This document shows, piece after piece, positions 14,146-21,759 of a stretch of 64,000 nucleotides of DNA (positions are counted from its first letter, which is position 1; every line of letters starts with the position of its first letter). The DNA lies in NCBI GenBank assembly GCA_017454905.1, contig JAFTCB010000033.1, positions 1 through 64,000 on the forward strand, written 5' to 3'. The notes beneath the pieces were generated by a model. That model did no database searches and had not been told where the DNA came from. It saw only the letters and a program-made list of their open reading frames with translations. Origin of the DNA: Bacteroidales bacterium (GTDB taxonomy: Bacteria > Bacteroidota > Bacteroidia > Bacteroidales > UBA932). The position numbers and the translations under genes are program-made.

Positions 14146-17100
14146 TCATTGAAGCGGCTTCAGCCGCAGGATCGCGATGGCGTTTTCCGGGAGAATGAAA
14201 TCGAAGGAGCCCTGTACGGCGCCAAGGGATTTGGTATGCGGCACCACGGGCTCAGTATATTTCACCCGCCGACCGAAGCGGAACGCCATCTCGCGCAAAC
14301 CAGGGCGTTCCCCCGCGGCGGGGCCGCCGAAGGACGGCGGCGTGGCGTAGTCGGGATGGCTGGAATAATAGTTCTGGCTGCCTTGGTTCTTGACGGAAGT
14401 GTCGTGCGAGGAGACGAATTCCAGGGTGGCTTCGTAGCACTGGCCGTTGCCGGTCCGGAAGGTAAAGATCTTGTCCACCGCTTCCGCATTGACGAGTTTG
14501 ACGAAGATTTCGCCCGTCTTCGTGTCAAGGGTCGGGGAAGTGTAAACTTTTTCGTCAATCTCCCCGCCCTTCATCGCCGGGGACATCTCCACGGCACGGT
14601 CACCGGCCACGGAGAAGAGCTGCTGGTACCAGTAGTTGCAGGAGCGCCACATGCCCCGGTTGTCGAACCAGATGAGGTTCGAATCCCACTTGTTGAAGCC
14701 TTTCTTGCAGAAAAGCGGAGCGTAGGCCGCCATCACCACCATATCGGAGTTGCGCTCCAGGCTGGTCCAATAGGCCGCCTCGGCCATCGCCGAGGAATAA
14801 GCATTGTTGGCGCGGTTGTTGGCGAATTCCCCGACAAACACGCGGGCAGGCCGGCTGCGGTCGTAGGTATGCCCTTCGCCGCCGCGCACCATGCCCGGCG
14901 CATAGCGGTCGCGGTGCGTATAGAACCATTCGTCGCTCTTGTAATAATGCTCATCCACGATGGTATCGGGATACTTGGCGTCAATTTCCGCCATGTTGGC
15001 GTCGAACTCCCGGCCCGCATCCGCCGCACCTGCCGTGGAGACGATGATGATCTCGGGATGCTGCGCCTTGATGGCTTTGTACATGATATCGAAACGCTCC
15101 CAGAATTCCGGACCCCGGTTCTCGTTGCCGATGCCCAGGTACTTCAGGTTGAACGGAGCCGGGTGGCCCATCTGTGCCCGGCGGGCTCCCCACTCCGTGT
15201 CGGTGCCGCCGTTGCAGAACTCGATAAAGTCGAGCGCATCCTTGACGAAGATGCTGTAGAAGCGGTCCCGGTCGGCCTGCGTATCCAGCGGTGCGATATA
15301 CTGGTGGCCGGCGAACTGGCAGGTGACGCCGTTGTTGAGTACCGGCAGCGGCGTGGCGCCTAGGCCTTCGGCCATCAGAAGATACTCGTAGAAGCCGATA
15401 TACTGGGAAGTCCAATAGGCCCAGTGGTTACGGAAGCCTACCCGCTCCTCGCGCGGGCCGATGGAATTCTTCCAGAACACCTGGCCGAAATAGTTCGTCC
15501 CCTCGGAGGCACAGCCGCCGGGAAAGCGCATGAAGGTCGGATGCAGGGCTTCCAGCGCTTCCAGCAGGTCTTTGCGGAAAGGACCGTATTTGCCACCCTT
15601 CCAAAGCTCGGAGGCCTCCGGCACCAGGGTGACGAAGTCCAGCCAGAAGGTGCCCTTCCTATCCGCAACGATGGCCAGACGGCTGTCCACGGAGCGCTCC
15701 GCTTTCAGCGTGCCGGTGTATTGCCTCCAGTCCTTGCTCAGGCCGGAGATGGTGATGACGTTGGAGTTGGGTTTCCCGGCCGCATCCTCCAGGTACACGG
15801 AGACGGTGCCTTTGTAGTTCTTGCCCTGCAGGTACAGGCCCAGATCGTAGCTTACACCTTCTTTGGCGGGGATGGAGGCTGTCTGCGTGTTGTTGGAATA
15901 CAGCTGGCCGGGGCCGCGCTTGTATTCGGAGATACCGTAGCCGTTGGCGGCGATGCCGAAGCCCGCACCGGGGTTCTCGATATCGAAACGCACGGAATAT
16001 TGCTTGTAGCGCAGCTCGTCGTCGTATTTGTCCGCCGGGTCGAAGTCGTACCAGCGCTTCAGGTTCTTGACCAGCGGCTTGTCATCCACGGCACGGGCAC
16101 TGCCCCGGGCGCCCTCCTTGCAGATGACCGTCCAGCCGAAGAAAGTGGTGTCGCTCCGGGAGAATTCGTTGTCACCGGGGGCGTCCGGAACATTGTAGGC
16201 CTGGAAAGAGTTGTTCTGGATCAATTGGGCGCAGATGCCGCCGTCCACGCTCTGGTTGATGTCTTCGAAGAAAATGCCCGCGAGCGTGGGGCTGATCCGG
16301 ATACCGAGTTTGTCGGGCTCGAGGGTGAGCGTGCGGCGCTCCGCTTCCCTGAAGCCCTGCAGTTCCAGCATCTTGTCCGCCATCCGGTAGCCCATCAGGC
16401 GCATGCCCTCGGTGCTGAAATGGAACTGGTCGCCCGTGCTCTCGCAGCCGAGGGCCGAGATCACATAGGCGTTCGGCATCACTTCCGGCAGGTGCGGCAG
16501 GACCACCTCGTTGAAGGCGGCGCAGACGCCGTCCTGCTCGGCATATTTCAATTCACCGGCCAGCAGGGGGACGGCATCAGGATCCAGACCCAGGTCCGCA
16601 CAGAGATCGTCATGGATCTTCTTGACGCGGCCCGGCCAGGCGGGATCGTCCGGGTTGGACTCGCCCTGGTGCAGAAGCATGCCCTTGATCACGCCGTATT
16701 TCTGCGCCTCGCGCGCCATGTCCAGCAGGCGCTGGTAGGGGTTCATCCCATACTGCTCCGCAATCCTGATCAGCCAGCTGCGCGAAGGGTCGGCGCCTTC
16801 CATCGCGAGGTAGTCCGCACAGGCGTCCTTGTCCCAGAGCTCCAGTTTCGCACCCGCCACGGACACGTTGATCACCCCCACACGGTACTGCTCCGGCAGG
16901 CACTCAATCATCTTGCGGCCGAAGAAATCGACCGGGCCGAGGTTGTTGCCCTCGCGGCAGATGGGCGGCGTGGCGGTGTACCAGTGCCCCATTTCCCGCC
17001 CGTGGCGGGGCATATCGACGGCCGCCATGAACTGGAAGCGGGGGTCGTTGAAATCCTTGTCCTGTTCGGCCGGGCGGGCGCCCGCCTCCATGTTGGACTG

Positions 17101-17202
17101 GCCGAAACAGAGATAGATGAAGAAATTGGGATCCTGCACCTGCGCGGAGGCAGGAAGCAGGGCGAGGACGGCCGCCAGGGCCGAAAGGAAAGCTTTCCGC
17201 AT
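14146..17202 (-). CDS. bifunctional SGNH (CE6-like acetyl) esterase - GH51 alpha-L-arabinofuranosidase
   Basis: Start at ATG 17202 gives a signal peptide (MRKAFLSALAAVLALLPASAQ); about 1018 residues. Residues 24-290 are an SGNH/sialate-O-acetylesterase-type domain: FGQSNMEAG with Ser36, INVSVAGAKLELW, LLHQGESN, and GDQFHF holding the D-x-x-H dyad (Asp258, His261). Residues about 298-1018 are GH51: SPTLAGIFFEDINQSVDGG, FPGGCASEGTNY, LGIGNENRG with acid/base Glu694, DEHYYKS, and FVGEFANN with nucleophile Glu792. The combination would remove acetyl and arabinosyl decorations from arabinoxylan or pectin side chains. It is divergent from the GH54 gene. Confidence 0.9.
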   Translation of the reverse strand: MRKAFLSALAAVLALLPASAQVQDPNFFIYLCFGQSNMEAGARPAEQDKDFNDPRFQFMAAVDMPRHGREMGHWYTATPPICREGNNLGPVDFFGRKMIECLPEQYRVGVINVSVAGAKLELWDKDACADYLAMEGADPSRSWLIRIAEQYGMNPYQRLLDMAREAQKYGVIKGMLLHQGESNPDDPAWPGRVKKIHDDLCADLGLDPDAVPLLAGELKYAEQDGVCAAFNEVVLPHLPEVMPNAYVISALGCESTGDQFHFSTEGMRLMGYRMADKMLELQGFREAERRTLTLEPDKLGIRISPTLAGIFFEDINQSVDGGICAQLIQNNSFQAYNVPDAPGDNEFSRSDTTFFGWTVICKEGARGSARAVDDKPLVKNLKRWYDFDPADKYDDELRYKQYSVRFDIENPGAGFGIAANGYGISEYKRGPGQLYSNNTQTASIPAKEGVSYDLGLYLQGKNYKGTVSVYLEDAAGKPNSNVITISGLSKDWRQYTGTLKAERSVDSRLAIVADRKGTFWLDFVTLVPEASELWKGGKYGPFRKDLLEALEALHPTFMRFPGGCASEGTNYFGQVFWKNSIGPREERVGFRNHWAYWTSQYIGFYEYLLMAEGLGATPLPVLNNGVTCQFAGHQYIAPLDTQADRDRFYSIFVKDALDFIEFCNGGTDTEWGARRAQMGHPAPFNLKYLGIGNENRGPEFWERFDIMYKAIKAQHPEIIIVSTAGAADAGREFDANMAEIDAKYPDTIVDEHYYKSDEWFYTHRDRYAPGMVRGGEGHTYDRSRPARVFVGEFANNRANNAYSSAMAEAAYWTSLERNSDMVVMAAYAPLFCKKGFNKWDSNLIWFDNRGMWRSCNYWYQQLFSVAGDRAVEMSPAMKGGEIDEKVYTSPTLDTKTGEIFVKLVNAEAVDKIFTFRTGNGQCYEATLEFVSSHDTSVKNQGSQNYYSSHPDYATPPSFGGPAAGERPGLREMAFRFGRRVKYTEPVVPHTKSLGAVQGSFDFILPENAIAILRLKPLQ

Positions 17203-17224
17203 AAAAAAGGTGATTGGTCCGAAA

Positions 17225-17232
17225 CAAAAGTA
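17225..17232 (-). promoter_or_regulatory. -7 box TACTTTTG for the GH51 fusion gene
   Basis: Minus-strand TACTTTTG lies 22 nt upstream of the ATG at 17202. The facing GH54 gene has TATCTTTA at 17320-17327, 23 nt before ATG 17351, so the 148-bp gap is a divergent promoter region. Confidence 0.5.
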
Positions 17233-17350
17233 GCAATAAAAAGAACTGCCCCGATAACACAGAACGCACATATTGTTTCAAATTCCGTTCAGACAGGTCG
17301 GGATATCCGGACAAATCCTTATCTTTAACGTGAAAAAACATGCAACCATC

Positions 17351-20300
17351 ATGAAAAAAGCATTATTCGGAGCAGTCGTCTGCCTGGTGCTCGCCGGGGC
17401 GGTGATTGCGTGCAACAACCTATCGGGAGGCAAGGCGCTGCAGCGCCCGGAAGGCCCCTGCGACATTTACGCCCGCGGCGGCGCACCCTGCGTGGCAGCC
17501 CACAGCACGACCCGGGCCCTCTATGCGTCCTACGACGGACCGCTCTACCAGGTGATGCGCCAGTCCGACGGCAAGACCCTCGATATCGGCGTGGTCAAGG
17601 CAACGGCAAATGATCCGGGCGGCTATGCGGATGCCGCCGCCCAGGACGCTTTCTGCAAGGATACCTGGTGCTGGGTCACGGTGCTCTACGACCAGTCCGG
17701 GAAGGGCAACCACCTGTACCAGGCCCCGCGCGGCGGCTTCAGCGGCCCCGCCATGGGCGGCTACAACAATGTCCCGCTCGCCGATTGGGCGCCCGTCAAC
17801 GTGATGGGGCACAAGGTGTACGGCCTGTTCATCGCCCCGGGCATGGGCATGCGTATCAACGACCCGGTCGGCACGGCCGTGGACGACCAGGCCGAGGGCC
17901 AGTATTGGGTTTTCAGCGGCCAGCATTATAATGACGGATGCTGCTTCGACTACGGCAACGCCGAGACCGATAGCCGGGACGACGGAGACGGCACCATGGA
18001 GACCACCTATTTCGGGAACTCCCGCGGCTGGTACTATGGCGAAGATGACGGTCCCTGGATCATGACCGATCAGGAGAACAACCTCGTGGGCTGCGTCAAT
18101 CCCGACCCCAACGACAAGTTCTGCCGGGGCTTGGAGAGCGTCTCCTGGCGCTTCGTCACGGCGACGGCCGACGGCGAACCGCACCACTGGCGCTCCATGG
18201 GCGGCAACGCCCAGGAAGGCGCCCTCAAGGTCTATTATGACGGCGGCCGCATCATCAACGACCGCAGCAGCTACGACCCGATGCGCAAGCAGGGCGCCAT
18301 CCTGCTTGGCAACGGCGGAGACAACAGCAACGGCTCCGCCGGCACGTTCTATGAGGCCGCGATGACCGCGGCCGGCACATTCCCGACTGAAGCGGTCAAC
18401 CAGGAGATCCAGGCCAACGTCGTGGCGGCCCGTTACCGGGTGGCCACGGTCGAAGTCTTCCCTTCGCTCAAGGACAATCGTCCGTCCAACGTCCAGACCT
18501 TCACCCCGGGCGGCAGCGCCAAGACCGTGGTGCGCTTCGTCAACACGAGCGACCAGCCCATCGAGGGCCTGACCCTTGCGTTGGAGGTACCTCGGGGGTG
18601 GAAAGCCTCCATCAACGGCAGCAAGCAGATGCGTGTCCCCTATGCCGTCGCCCCCGGACAGACGGTCGTGGCCGAATTTGACGTGACCGCGGGACCGGCA
18701 GCCTTCAATGGAGACCTGACCGGCATCGCTGCCTGGAAGGGGACCGCAGGCGCCTTCCGTGAAAGCGGCCGCCTCAAGGTCCGGAGCACACCGGCTGTCA
18801 AGATCAATGAATTCAGCATTACCGACGCTTTCATCGAGCTCTACAACGCCTCCGACAAGGCCGTTGACCTGTCCGGCTGGACCATCCGCCATCATGCGGC
18901 CAACATCCCGTATTTCTCAGATATCCAGATTCCGTCCGGCACGCAGCTCGCCCCGAAAGCCTGGTACCTGCTCGGCATGGCCGGTTCCGGACTTGCCGTG
19001 GATGCTGCCAAGGGCGACGCCACGATCTATGTCCGTAGCGTAGAAGGTATCCGTCCCGGCGATGAGATCCTCGTGGGAGGGGAGAAAAAGACCGTCAAGG
19101 CCGTGAACGCCCCGGCTCCTGCGCCGGCAGGCGTCCCGATGGGCCGCGGCATGCTGCCAGCAGGCGCTCCCACGACTGTCTGGCAGCCGCTTCCGGGTGG
19201 CCATGGCATCGAAATCCCCGTCGGATCGACCAACATTCCCGTCACCTCCGCCGCGCATTTCCAGGTCGGGCAGAAGATGGCCATCGGCTACGGCACCGAC
19301 CGCCCCGCCGTCTCCAATTCGACCGAGAAATACGAGGTCGTGACCGTCACGGCCGTCGGCAAGGCCGGTACGCAGGGCTGGCTGTCCATGGATGCCAAGC
19401 CGGGTGACACCAATATCAAGGTCTCCTCGGTCGAGAACATTTCCGTGGGCGACAAGATCCGGCTGGACATCGCCAGCGAGGGCCACGGCATCGAAACCGT
19501 GACCGTCACGAAGGTCGGCACCGCATCCGCACGCAATACTTTCGCGGGCCCGCTGAAACCGGGAGAAGACCCTGGCACGGGCCTGGATATCGCAGAACCG
19601 CTGAAATATGCCCATGCCTCCAACATGCCATACAGCGTGAACGGCACGGGGATCAGTTTTGAGCCCGCCACGAAGCATGCCCACTACAGCAACGAGCCGG
19701 TACTGGCGCTCTGCTTCTCGATCGAGCTCGACAGCCCGCTCGCTTCAGCCCACCCGATTAACGAAGCGGTCATCGCCGGCACGGGCGGCTACCGGGGAAC
19801 TGTCCCGGCAGACCTGACCTTCGGCGGCCCGGCCCTGAGCGAAGCCGGCGGCAACATCACCCTGCGCGACGCCCGGGGCAACATCGCCGACGCCCTCAAC
19901 TATGGCCTGGTGGTGGATCCCTGGCTCTCCGAGGGATACCAGGCCGATTCCGGGGCGCATGAGCCCGGTAATTTCGCGCCCACCCCGTATCCCGGCCGCC
20001 GTTTCGGTGCCGCTGGCACACCGCTGGTGGCGGCGCTGAGTTCCGGACGCTTCCCGGACGGGGCCGACCTGGATGACAACAAGAACGACTTCCAGACCCA
20101 GCAGTCGCTCAACCTGGCCCGGGAGGCCAAGCCCGGCGACACCAACATCAAGGTCTCTTCCGTGCAGGGTCTCCTGGAGGACGGCCCGGTCGTCATCGGA
20201 CGCGGGCCTGACGCACAGGTCCTGACCGTAACCCGCCTCGGCTCCGCCGGCGCGACCACGCTCACGAGTCCCGCAGGATCGGGTCTGAAGACCCTGCTCG

Positions 20301-20578
20301 TGGACAGCGCCCAGGGCTTCTCTGTCGGCCAGGAAGTGCTGGTCGGCGAAGAAAAGGCCGTCGTAGCCGAAGTCATCCTGCCCCGCCGCTGGTGGGTGCA
20401 GACCGGACCGCAGGACAACCGGATCATCCTTTCCGCTCCACTGCGCAAGACCCACCGGACCGGGGAGGCCGTCACCGGTACCGGAGTGACACTCTCCGCT
20501 CCGGTCAGCGCTGCCCGTGCGGCCGGGACGCCTGTCGCCACGGGCCACCCGACACCGGGTGCAGCCAACCGGTATTGA
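17351..20578 (+). CDS. GH54 alpha-L-arabinofuranosidase lipoprotein, fungal AbfB-like, with NEW3, lamin-tail and repeat modules
   Basis: 1075 residues from ATG 17351; signal ends VIAC, a lipobox. Residues about 35-362 match the catalytic domain of fungal AbfB: PCDIYARGGAPCVAAHSTTRALYASY, CCFDYGNAETDSRD, YFGNSRGWYYG, GGDNSNG..GTFYE (strings trimmed here). By position Glu242 (in DQEN) corresponds to the known nucleophile and Asp324 (in GGDNSN) to the acid/base. Cys37/47, 102/107 and the vicinal pair 197/198 match the three disulfides of the A. kawachii enzyme; Cys248/258 are extra. The fungal CBM42 is absent. Instead there is a NEW3-like domain (about 375-475), lamin-tail-like segments, and five repeats of the form G.T.I.V.SV.G...GD. 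Divergent from GH51; followed after 7 nt by a disulfide-forming enzyme. Confidence 0.92.
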   Translation: MKKALFGAVVCLVLAGAVIACNNLSGGKALQRPEGPCDIYARGGAPCVAAHSTTRALYASYDGPLYQVMRQSDGKTLDIGVVKATANDPGGYADAAAQDAFCKDTWCWVTVLYDQSGKGNHLYQAPRGGFSGPAMGGYNNVPLADWAPVNVMGHKVYGLFIAPGMGMRINDPVGTAVDDQAEGQYWVFSGQHYNDGCCFDYGNAETDSRDDGDGTMETTYFGNSRGWYYGEDDGPWIMTDQENNLVGCVNPDPNDKFCRGLESVSWRFVTATADGEPHHWRSMGGNAQEGALKVYYDGGRIINDRSSYDPMRKQGAILLGNGGDNSNGSAGTFYEAAMTAAGTFPTEAVNQEIQANVVAARYRVATVEVFPSLKDNRPSNVQTFTPGGSAKTVVRFVNTSDQPIEGLTLALEVPRGWKASINGSKQMRVPYAVAPGQTVVAEFDVTAGPAAFNGDLTGIAAWKGTAGAFRESGRLKVRSTPAVKINEFSITDAFIELYNASDKAVDLSGWTIRHHAANIPYFSDIQIPSGTQLAPKAWYLLGMAGSGLAVDAAKGDATIYVRSVEGIRPGDEILVGGEKKTVKAVNAPAPAPAGVPMGRGMLPAGAPTTVWQPLPGGHGIEIPVGSTNIPVTSAAHFQVGQKMAIGYGTDRPAVSNSTEKYEVVTVTAVGKAGTQGWLSMDAKPGDTNIKVSSVENISVGDKIRLDIASEGHGIETVTVTKVGTASARNTFAGPLKPGEDPGTGLDIAEPLKYAHASNMPYSVNGTGISFEPATKHAHYSNEPVLALCFSIELDSPLASAHPINEAVIAGTGGYRGTVPADLTFGGPALSEAGGNITLRDARGNIADALNYGLVVDPWLSEGYQADSGAHEPGNFAPTPYPGRRFGAAGTPLVAALSSGRFPDGADLDDNKNDFQTQQSLNLAREAKPGDTNIKVSSVQGLLEDGPVVIGRGPDAQVLTVTRLGSAGATTLTSPAGSGLKTLLVDSAQGFSVGQEVLVGEEKAVVAEVILPRRWWVQTGPQDNRIILSAPLRKTHRTGEAVTGTGVTLSAPVSAARAAGTPVATGHPTPGAANRY

Positions 20579-20585
20579 TGCGGAC

Positions 20586-21707
20586 GTGACCCTGCGCAGG
20601 TTCAAAGCCTGGATGCTGCCGCTGTGTGCGGCCGCCCTGTTGCTCGCCGGATGGATGTTGTATCATTCCCTGTCCGGCGGGCAATTGGCAGGCTGCGGTG
20701 CCGGCAGCGGCTGCGATGAGGTGATGAGCAGTCCCTGGGCCTATGTGCTCGGCGGGGTGCCGGTCAGCCTGCCTGCCGTGCCGGTCTATCTCCTGATCCT
20801 CGTCTGCCTGCTGTTCCTCGGCGGCGAAAGCGCCGAGTCCCGGTCGCTCGACCGCCTGATCTGGCGGCTGCTGCCGCTGCTGGGCGGCTGCCTCGTCGGC
20901 GTGGCGCTGTGGTTCAGCGGATTGCAGCTCTTTGTGCTGCACAGTTTCTGCAAGTACTGCACGCTGCTGCACGTCATCGGCTGCGCCATGGCTGTGGTCA
21001 TCCTGACCGCTGCCCGGGACCGGGAAGGAGCTTCCGGACGACGGTTCATAGGGTTCGCCGCCGGGGTGCTCGCGGCGGCGGTATTCGCTTTCGTCCAGGC
21101 ACGCACCCTGCCCGATGCCGCCTACGACAGCGGAAGTACCGGCGCGGAACTGCCGGCATTCTCCGAAGGAGAGATCCCGGTACTGGGAGAGGGAGAAGAG
21201 ACGCTTACCCTGCTGTTCGACTTCCAATGCGTCCACTGCCGCCGCATGCACCGCATCCTGCCGGAACTGCAGGAGAAGGGAGGGTTCCGCATCTTCCTGT
21301 GCCCGGTGCCGCTCAGCAGTGCCTGCAATCCCTATATCCCCGCCGGCGGAGTGGACCGTTTCGCGGGCTCCTGCCCGCTCACGCGGCTCGCCCTGGCCGT
21401 CTGGTACGCCCGTCCGGAGCTGTACGCCGGATACTGGGAGCGGCTGCTGGGTGCCGGGGACGAGCACGCAGCCATCACGCCCGAGGAAGCGGAAAAACAG
21501 GCCCGGACGCTGCTGGGAGACGGATTTGAAGCGGCCCTGGCGGACCCGCGAATCGATGCCTGCCTGCGCAAGGCGGAAGATCTCTTCGGACGCACGTCCG
21601 CCCAGGGGAAGGGCGGTGTCCCCCGGCTCATCCACGGACAGCGCTGGCTCGTCCCGGAAACGGACGATGCGGACGAGCTGCTGGATCTTATCCGGACAGA
21701 ACTGTAA
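20586..21707 (+). CDS. VKOR - DsbA-like thioredoxin fusion, disulfide bond formation
   Basis: The GTG at 20586 is chosen because it lies 7 nt after the GH54 stop and places the first helix correctly; upstream codons would overlap GH54. About 373 residues. Several membrane helices span residues about 8-180 and hold the vitamin K epoxide reductase pattern: loop cysteines 37 and 43 (CGAGSGCDEV), a GGVPVSLPAVPVY block, and active CxxC 122/125 (FCKYC). The periplasmic C-terminal domain is thioredoxin/DsbA-like with CVHC (Cys215/218). VKOR passes electrons to quinones and the Dsb domain oxidises client cysteines. The operon position suggests that the Cys-rich GH54 is a client; this is inference. 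Confidence 0.88.
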   Translation: MTLRRFKAWMLPLCAAALLLAGWMLYHSLSGGQLAGCGAGSGCDEVMSSPWAYVLGGVPVSLPAVPVYLLILVCLLFLGGESAESRSLDRLIWRLLPLLGGCLVGVALWFSGLQLFVLHSFCKYCTLLHVIGCAMAVVILTAARDREGASGRRFIGFAAGVLAAAVFAFVQARTLPDAAYDSGSTGAELPAFSEGEIPVLGEGEETLTLLFDFQCVHCRRMHRILPELQEKGGFRIFLCPVPLSSACNPYIPAGGVDRFAGSCPLTRLALAVWYARPELYAGYWERLLGAGDEHAAITPEEAEKQARTLLGDGFEAALADPRIDACLRKAEDLFGRTSAQGKGGVPRLIHGQRWLVPETDDADELLDLIRTEL

Positions 21708-21726
21708 CCTGCTCCCCAAAACGACG

Positions 21727-21753
21727 CTGAGGGTCCATGCCTTGGACCCTCAG
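21727..21753. terminator. bidirectional hairpin between convergent genes
   Basis: Perfect 11-bp stem CTGAGGGTCCA / TGGACCCTCAG with a 5-nt loop, placed between the convergent stops at 21707 and 21760. A short T run follows on the minus strand; none on plus. Confidence 0.7.
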
Positions 21754-21759
21754 TGCCAT

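Follow-up and report, generated by a model that had tools for sequence, protein, structure and literature searches.

A GH54 arabinofuranosidase gene and the VKOR-DsbA gene beside it as a candidate enzyme-plus-oxidase cassette

Fusions of VKOR to thioredoxin-like domains are well known, as passages of one account state (PMC4555120), and passages of another describe a VKOR-DsbA fusion that substitutes for DsbA and DsbB in Escherichia coli and works as an oxidase there (PMC12453122). Passages of a third source present DsbL and DsbI as an oxidase pair, possibly reserved for a particular set of substrates, and name arylsulfate sulfotransferase (ASST) as a native substrate that requires a disulfide (PMC6067686). 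Here we describe a locus in a 64,000-nucleotide stretch of DNA from a Bacteroidales bacterium (contig JAFTCB010000033.1; the whole stretch is referred to as the window), in which a gene for a GH54 protein is followed on the same strand by a gene for a VKOR-DsbA fusion. Gene linkage between an oxidase and its client is familiar from DsbL/DsbI and ASST. For the locus described here, we consider it rather likely that GH54 and VKOR-DsbA form a portable two-gene cassette of enzyme plus oxidase, in which VKOR-DsbA would close the disulfides of the GH54 protein. The observed basis of this model is the co-occurrence of the two genes, their order, the redox cysteines kept in both partners and the absence of this VKOR-DsbA subfamily from the GH54-free genomes examined.

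The first gene (17351..20578, forward strand, as are all features below unless stated otherwise) encodes a protein of 1075 amino acids that its open reading frame, Pfam and alignment to solved structures identify as a type A GH54 alpha-L-arabinofuranosidase and predicted lipoprotein. PF09206 matches residues 36-362 with 391.7 bits (cut-off 25; E 2.8e-117), and the solved Aspergillus AbfB structures (1wd3, 6sxt) align across 364 residues at E of about 1e-108; we assign the protein to GH54 and predict arabinofuranosidase activity. The N-terminus has a signal sequence and a lipobox, whose cysteine (C21, codon 17411..17413 in the sequence) is shared by 17 of 62 rows that align at this position. 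By alignment, the catalytic domain (17456..18436) contains eight conserved cysteines together with E242 and D324, and the latter two align with E221 and D297 of A. kawachii, which we take to be the catalytic Glu and Asp. Both are kept in all rows of a 121-row alignment (119 rows from loci, the window and one fungus), in which the vicinal cysteine pair is likewise invariant. The cysteine pairs 37/47, 102/107, 197/198 and 248/258 are present as the first-pass annotation of this DNA had claimed, and the first three align on C21/C31, C81/C86 and C176/C177 in what we take to be the fungal numbering, while for 248/258 the alignment has no fungal counterpart. We refer to GH54 proteins with pair 248/258 as type A and to those without it as type B. 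Thus, the window protein has the catalytic domain, the catalytic residues and three cysteine pairs in common with fungal AbfB, whereas bacterial type A adds the fourth pair and a tail with an NPCBM_assoc (NEW3) domain (residues 385-455; 18503..18715) and a Lamin Tail Domain (LTD; residues 479-545; 18785..18985), both found with Pfam. A CBM42-type (AbfB) domain gave no Pfam match in the protein. Further along the tail, between residues 554 and 999, a motif of about 23 amino acids, roughly GDTxIxVxSxxGxxVGDxIxIG, occurs five times (at residues 554, 624, 684, 928 and 977).

The second gene (20586..21707) begins with GTG after an intergenic gap of 7 nucleotides (20579..20585) and encodes a fusion of 373 amino acids, as its open reading frame, Pfam and alignment indicate. 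Its VKOR membrane domain (20610..21002; Pfam and alignment) matches PF07884 with 61.8 bits (cut-off 27.5; E 9.9e-17) and has loop cysteines C37/C43 and a CXXC formed by C122/C125. The second domain contains a CVHC motif (C215/C218; 21228..21239; sequence and alignment), and because the Pfam DSBA score over this region (19.6 bits) is under the cut-off of 25.6, we name it DsbA-like only. Eight cysteines are invariant in the fusion (C37, C43, C122, C125, C215, C218, C247 and C263; 12/12 and 25/25 rows), as are H217 and P346, and P346 probably marks the cis-Pro position of the DsbA-like domain. The window genome, which is 82% complete, has a single VKOR match. With this, the coordinates, reading frames, 7-nucleotide spacing and GH54, VKOR and CVHC domains all hold as first annotated, according to the open reading frames and Pfam.

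Within the genus, the two genes co-occur almost without exception. Among 200 genomes, the window genome included, GH54 was over the cut-off in 23 and VKOR in 21. Type A GH54 is present in 21 genomes and the VKOR-DsbA subfamily in 20 of those 21, with profile scores of 410-529 bits, while the subfamily is absent from 179/179 genomes without type A (Fisher p 1.3e-26, a value that ignores kinship, related genomes not being independent). In G014, the sole type A genome of the genus without VKOR, the GH54 gene runs off the contig end where VKOR would be expected; the VKOR of another genus member, G158, does not match the subfamily profile. In the 21 type A genomes VKOR lies directly downstream in 15, a contig ends at or near the junction in three (G014, G169 and G176, the GH54 frame of G169 being cut to 423 amino acids) and VKOR is elsewhere in three. 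A scan of 199 genomes of the family gave a similar picture for genus g185, in which all eight GH54 genomes have VKOR; in 7/8 it lies on the same strand some 2.2 kb 3' of the GH54 domain, and in the remaining one there are contig ends. Eight other genomes of the family have VKOR without GH54, and their VKORs reach at most 20.2 bits on the subfamily profile.

A search in the reverse direction, with a profile of 12 VKOR-DsbA proteins against 228 genomes of the order and without use of GH54, found three strong members at 468-488 bits, namely the window, G876 and G977 (from another family), the next best score being 32 bits. Immediately upstream of the VKOR-DsbA gene, both G876 and G977 encode a GH54 that retains the eight cysteines and the two catalytic residues. 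G876 turned out to be the record of locus L186 of the wider survey described below and adds no locus; G977 is new and outside that set. Of 395 genomes scanned phylum-wide, the window genome alone has a full GH54, five others giving short partial matches, and a VKOR of any kind was over the cut-off in 93. In 64 genomes without a full GH54 that were selected by their VKOR matches (62 of those 93, together with G158 and G015, the latter below the cut-off), the subfamily score was at most 58.5 bits as compared to 468-488 for members. The other 30 phylum-wide VKOR genomes, represented by one scored VKOR locus each with second VKORs of some genomes left out, reach at most 62.6 bits on the tighter profile and 152 on the looser one. 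Intermediate scores were seen for L218 (179 bits; the second VKOR of an Aeoliella genome) and L124 (172 bits; a fragment of 211 amino acids from a GH54 genome). In a 74-row VKOR tree the 72 subfamily rows all come from GH54 genomes, most rows having been fetched through GH54, and among the genomes examined the subfamily was found in no GH54-free one.

Linkage extends beyond the genus. From a wider survey of named genomes we took the best 80 of 199 GH54-related loci, a set that is weighted to near relatives, includes two loci from some genomes and overlaps partly with the genus scan. In 60 of these loci the next frame downstream, in the same orientation, is a VKOR-DsbA gene; seven are at a contig end and 13 contain no such frame. 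The 60 linked loci cover Bacteroidota, Planctomycetota (L190, L194, L196, L204 and L210) and Verrucomicrobiota (L200), and include a named strain, Aeoliella straminimaris (L190). No other neighbour within 7 kb matches this constancy; the runner-up, a family of multi-domain esterases carrying BD-FAE, occurs in 14/60 loci. The proposal that the pair is a recurring unit is supported by the 60/80 loci and the 3/3 members from the reverse search, and in the genus and the reverse search the association goes far beyond chance. Across 62 linked pairs and the window, no GH54 cysteines other than the eight in the catalytic domain are widely conserved, C788 being present in 22/63.

In our model, the product of the first gene would be exported and act as a GH54 arabinofuranosidase that contains four cysteine pairs, and the second gene would encode a fusion protein of the inner membrane, VKOR joined to a DsbA-like domain. 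The CxHC of this domain would oxidise GH54 thiols, closing the disulfides during folding, and would itself be re-oxidised via the VKOR loop cysteines and then the CXXC, with electrons ending on a quinone, presumably menaquinone. GH54 would be the main client of VKOR-DsbA. We suggest more tentatively, and with somewhat less confidence than doubt, that the cassette lets bacteria without other envelope disulfide formation, many of them gut or digester dwellers, use disulfide-dependent eukaryote-like hydrolases, and that VKOR-DsbA has been re-paired with carboxylesterases of the cholinesterase fold.

Several observations weigh against this model. VKOR lies away from GH54 in G035, G068 and G148 of the genus and in G787 and G788; the pattern that the first-pass annotation had named as refuting, GH54 without a VKOR neighbour and VKOR elsewhere in the genome, thus occurs in 3/21 genus genomes and these two others, while in four of the five the VKOR adjoins carboxylesterases with extra conserved cysteines. 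Subfamily VKOR genes stand beside carboxylesterases in five GH54 genomes (L063, L079, L083, L267 and L268), and type B GH54 genes directly follow VKOR in six loci from five genomes, one of which (L082) has lost pair 102/107, such that VKOR is not exclusive to type A. Conversely, G063 and G139 have no subfamily VKOR but do have a type B GH54, which contains the vicinal cysteines as well. Among six Acidobacterial GH54 genomes, five have no VKOR match and the sixth has only a VKOR of 162 amino acids, and DsbB was not found in any of the six; nor was there a VKOR match in the KSB1 genome G785, in G784 or in G800, the GH54 of G800 being at a contig end. Finally, MenA was over the cut-off in 0/8 g185 genomes and unmatched in G786, G789, G801 and G876, and it is present in VKOR-free G012 and G072 (2/3 VKOR-free genus genomes). 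Because the Acidobacterial and KSB1 type A genes retain all eight cysteines, type A GH54 in these genomes either folds via another oxidant or needs none.

Comparison of the two GH54 types indicates which cysteines differ between them. Pair 102/107 is intact in 88/88 type A rows and broken or lost in 12/32 bacterial type B rows; of the type A rows, four lack pair 37/47 and two do not align there. The type B losses of 102/107 (L066, L067, L151, L140, L082 and others), which leave a single cysteine in four rows, occur in VKOR-bearing genomes too. The vicinal disulfide as the reason for VKOR was rejected, type B having the vicinal pair in every row, also without a subfamily VKOR. Confinement of the pairing to anaerobes is not supported either, given that records of Aeoliella, Mucilaginibacter and Oleiharenicola carry the pair. 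In L167 (4459-9319) and L270, a type B frame of 662 amino acids is followed by a short type A frame of 519 amino acids with no adjoining VKOR, and the VKOR of that genome is at the end of another contig.

The alternative that survives best, which we nevertheless consider unlikely, is that VKOR-DsbA is a general oxidase of exported proteins and stays with GH54 by joint acquisition or because GH54 is its neediest client. Its being the sole VKOR of the window genome, where DsbB was not found, would fit such a role, as would the copies beside carboxylesterases in five genomes, the type B genes after VKOR in six loci and, in passages of a published study, the capacity of a VKOR-DsbA fusion to replace DsbA/DsbB in E. 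coli (PMC12453122). In line with the cassette model, DsbB exceeded its cut-off in a single genome out of 56 (50 with GH54) and was not found in the genus genomes tested, the window genome included. Against a general oxidase, most genomes of the genus live without VKOR, which was over the cut-off in only 21/200, the subfamily is confined to genomes with GH54 among those examined, and the exported proteins of carriers are neither markedly depleted in cysteine nor biased toward even cysteine numbers. This last point comes from a survey of sampled stretches (the window, L057-L094, L291-L308 and L311-L330; near copies removed) in which genes and signal peptides were called by crude means; its GH54-set stretches were mostly picked around GH54 or VKOR, and a few are from type B-only genomes. 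In GH54-bearing genus genomes, there are 1.04 Cys per 100 amino acids in exported proteins versus 1.27 in cytosolic ones, and 53 of 103 exported proteins with 1-8 Cys have an even count (expected fraction 0.50), compared to 10/28 in genus genomes without VKOR; the same survey on fewer stretches gave 28/61 and 10/32. The same script applied to 350 kb of E. coli K-12 as a control returned 0.38 Cys per 100 amino acids and an even count in 8/10, a small set (expected 0.38; p 0.009). The sampled exported proteins thus give no sign of general oxidative folding, which fits a client-specific oxidase without being proof of one.

The supply of quinone was considered as a clean correlate of VKOR and set aside because of the mixed MenA pattern: MenA was over the cut-off in 20/21 genus GH54 genomes tested, which speaks for the model, as opposed to the g185 genomes and others listed above. 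The g185 genomes that have VKOR and MenA below the cut-off are G607, G672, G723, G733, G748, G767, G772 and G778.

A second alternative, which we regard as improbable, is that VKOR-DsbA mainly serves other cysteine-rich hydrolases, in particular the carboxylesterases, with GH54 as a bystander in a shared regulon. The esterases beside VKOR in the five genomes are carboxylesterase lipoproteins with extra conserved cysteines, and PF00135 was confirmed in 6/10 of the esterase frames. They fall into two types: the first shares three cysteines in 7/7 rows, with two more in 5/7 and 6/7, and the second is without them in 3/3, which speaks for this alternative. Arguing for GH54 instead, esterase pairing is seen in five genomes as compared to GH54 pairing in 60/80 loci, although most loci were retrieved by way of GH54, a bias toward the latter count, and type A GH54 is present in every genus genome with a subfamily VKOR. 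One of the five esterase-linked genomes, G087, also carries a GH54-linked VKOR, the esterase-side VKOR being a second copy. Going by their conserved cysteines and gene neighbourhood, the cysteine-rich carboxylesterases may be alternative clients of VKOR-DsbA; in our reading, the esterase-linked copies widen rather than kill the idea of an oxidase with its own client. In G035, the frame after VKOR is without any Pfam match.

That the fusion reduces, isomerises or senses redox state rather than oxidises is very improbable: sequence cannot give the direction of electron flow and the DsbA-like domain has the extra invariant pair C247/C263, but CxHC is typical of DsbA oxidases and the VKOR-DsbA fusion introduced at the outset acts as an oxidase in E. 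coli.

Phylogeny bears on how the two genes came to be distributed. In a 99-row GH54 tree, type A and type B each form a bacterial clade, and the fungal sequence branches outside both (branch length 0.79). The type A clade spans records of Bacteroidota, Planctomycetota, Verrucomicrobiota, Acidobacteria, Gemmatimonadetes and KSB1. On this tree, with its single fungal sequence on a long branch, a recent fungal origin of GH54 was rejected, and of the earlier idea of a transferred eukaryote-like unit, the phylogeny leaves the transfer of a unit and does not support the recent step from fungi. Distances between GH54 proteins and between VKOR-DsbA proteins correlate across 62 pairs (Mantel r 0.66; 0/999 permutations), as joint inheritance would give. 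For paired trees, 32 of the 62 linked pairs were chosen by hand as representatives; the GH54 and VKOR trees have a main split of 17/15 rows in common, and the six non-Bacteroidota rows form one side of a branch in both. The patchy distribution suggests transfer, and transfer of the GH54/VKOR pair as a unit is likely, though not proven.

Around the two genes, a terminator-like hairpin of 13 pairs (21725..21755; hairpin search) lies directly 3' of the VKOR gene and ahead of a convergent gene, thus sitting between the convergent VKOR and DUF2207 genes; in 5 kb, 6 such sites were observed compared to 3.4 expected from shuffling. On the other side, the divergent neighbour (14146..17271, reverse strand) has, by Pfam, a SASA esterase domain and alpha-L-arabinofuranosidase domains (ASD1_dom, Alpha-L-AF_C), and we take it to be GH51-like.

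If the cassette model is correct, oxidative folding would not be all-or-none for a cell and could instead travel with one enzyme as its accessory. Gene order could then predict the clients of orphan VKOR-DsbA proteins, client specificity could be studied in the pair as a simple model, and VKOR-DsbA could be co-expressed with GH54 enzymes that are applied to arabinoxylan. Among titles and abstract openings, we found no paper on a GH54-VKOR pair and none combining vitamin K epoxide reductase, glycoside hydrolase and polysaccharide utilization. The first-pass annotation knew of no described system of this form, which holds for the GH54-VKOR pair as far as this literature goes and does not hold for the principle of an oxidase with its own client, which is already known from DsbL/DsbI and ASST; VKOR-thioredoxin-like fusions are known as well.

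Described VKOR-DsbA fusions (the VKORC1/thioredoxin protein of solved structures 3kp9/4nv6 and Clostridium CsVKOR-DsbA) and the window protein agree in the order of their domains, in the loop cysteines, in the CXXC and in the CxxC of the thioredoxin-like part. The window protein is only remotely similar to 4nv6, with E 5e-5 and the VKOR part alone aligned, and the GH54-linked proteins make up a separate subfamily, given their scores in the genus as opposed to those of the 30 phylum-wide loci. As in the DsbL/DsbI-ASST system, there would be an oxidase with its own client, and the genes of the two are linked, here in 60/80 loci and 3/3 members of the reverse search. In contrast, DsbL/DsbI is of the DsbA/DsbB type and works alongside a general Dsb system, whereas here the oxidase is a VKOR-DsbA fusion, DsbB was not found and the sampled exported proteins are without signs of a general system; the client is ASST in the one case and the proposed client a glycoside hydrolase in the other. 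What appears to be new is a VKOR-DsbA subfamily that, among the genomes searched, is confined to those with GH54, occurs across phyla and has a second likely type of client.

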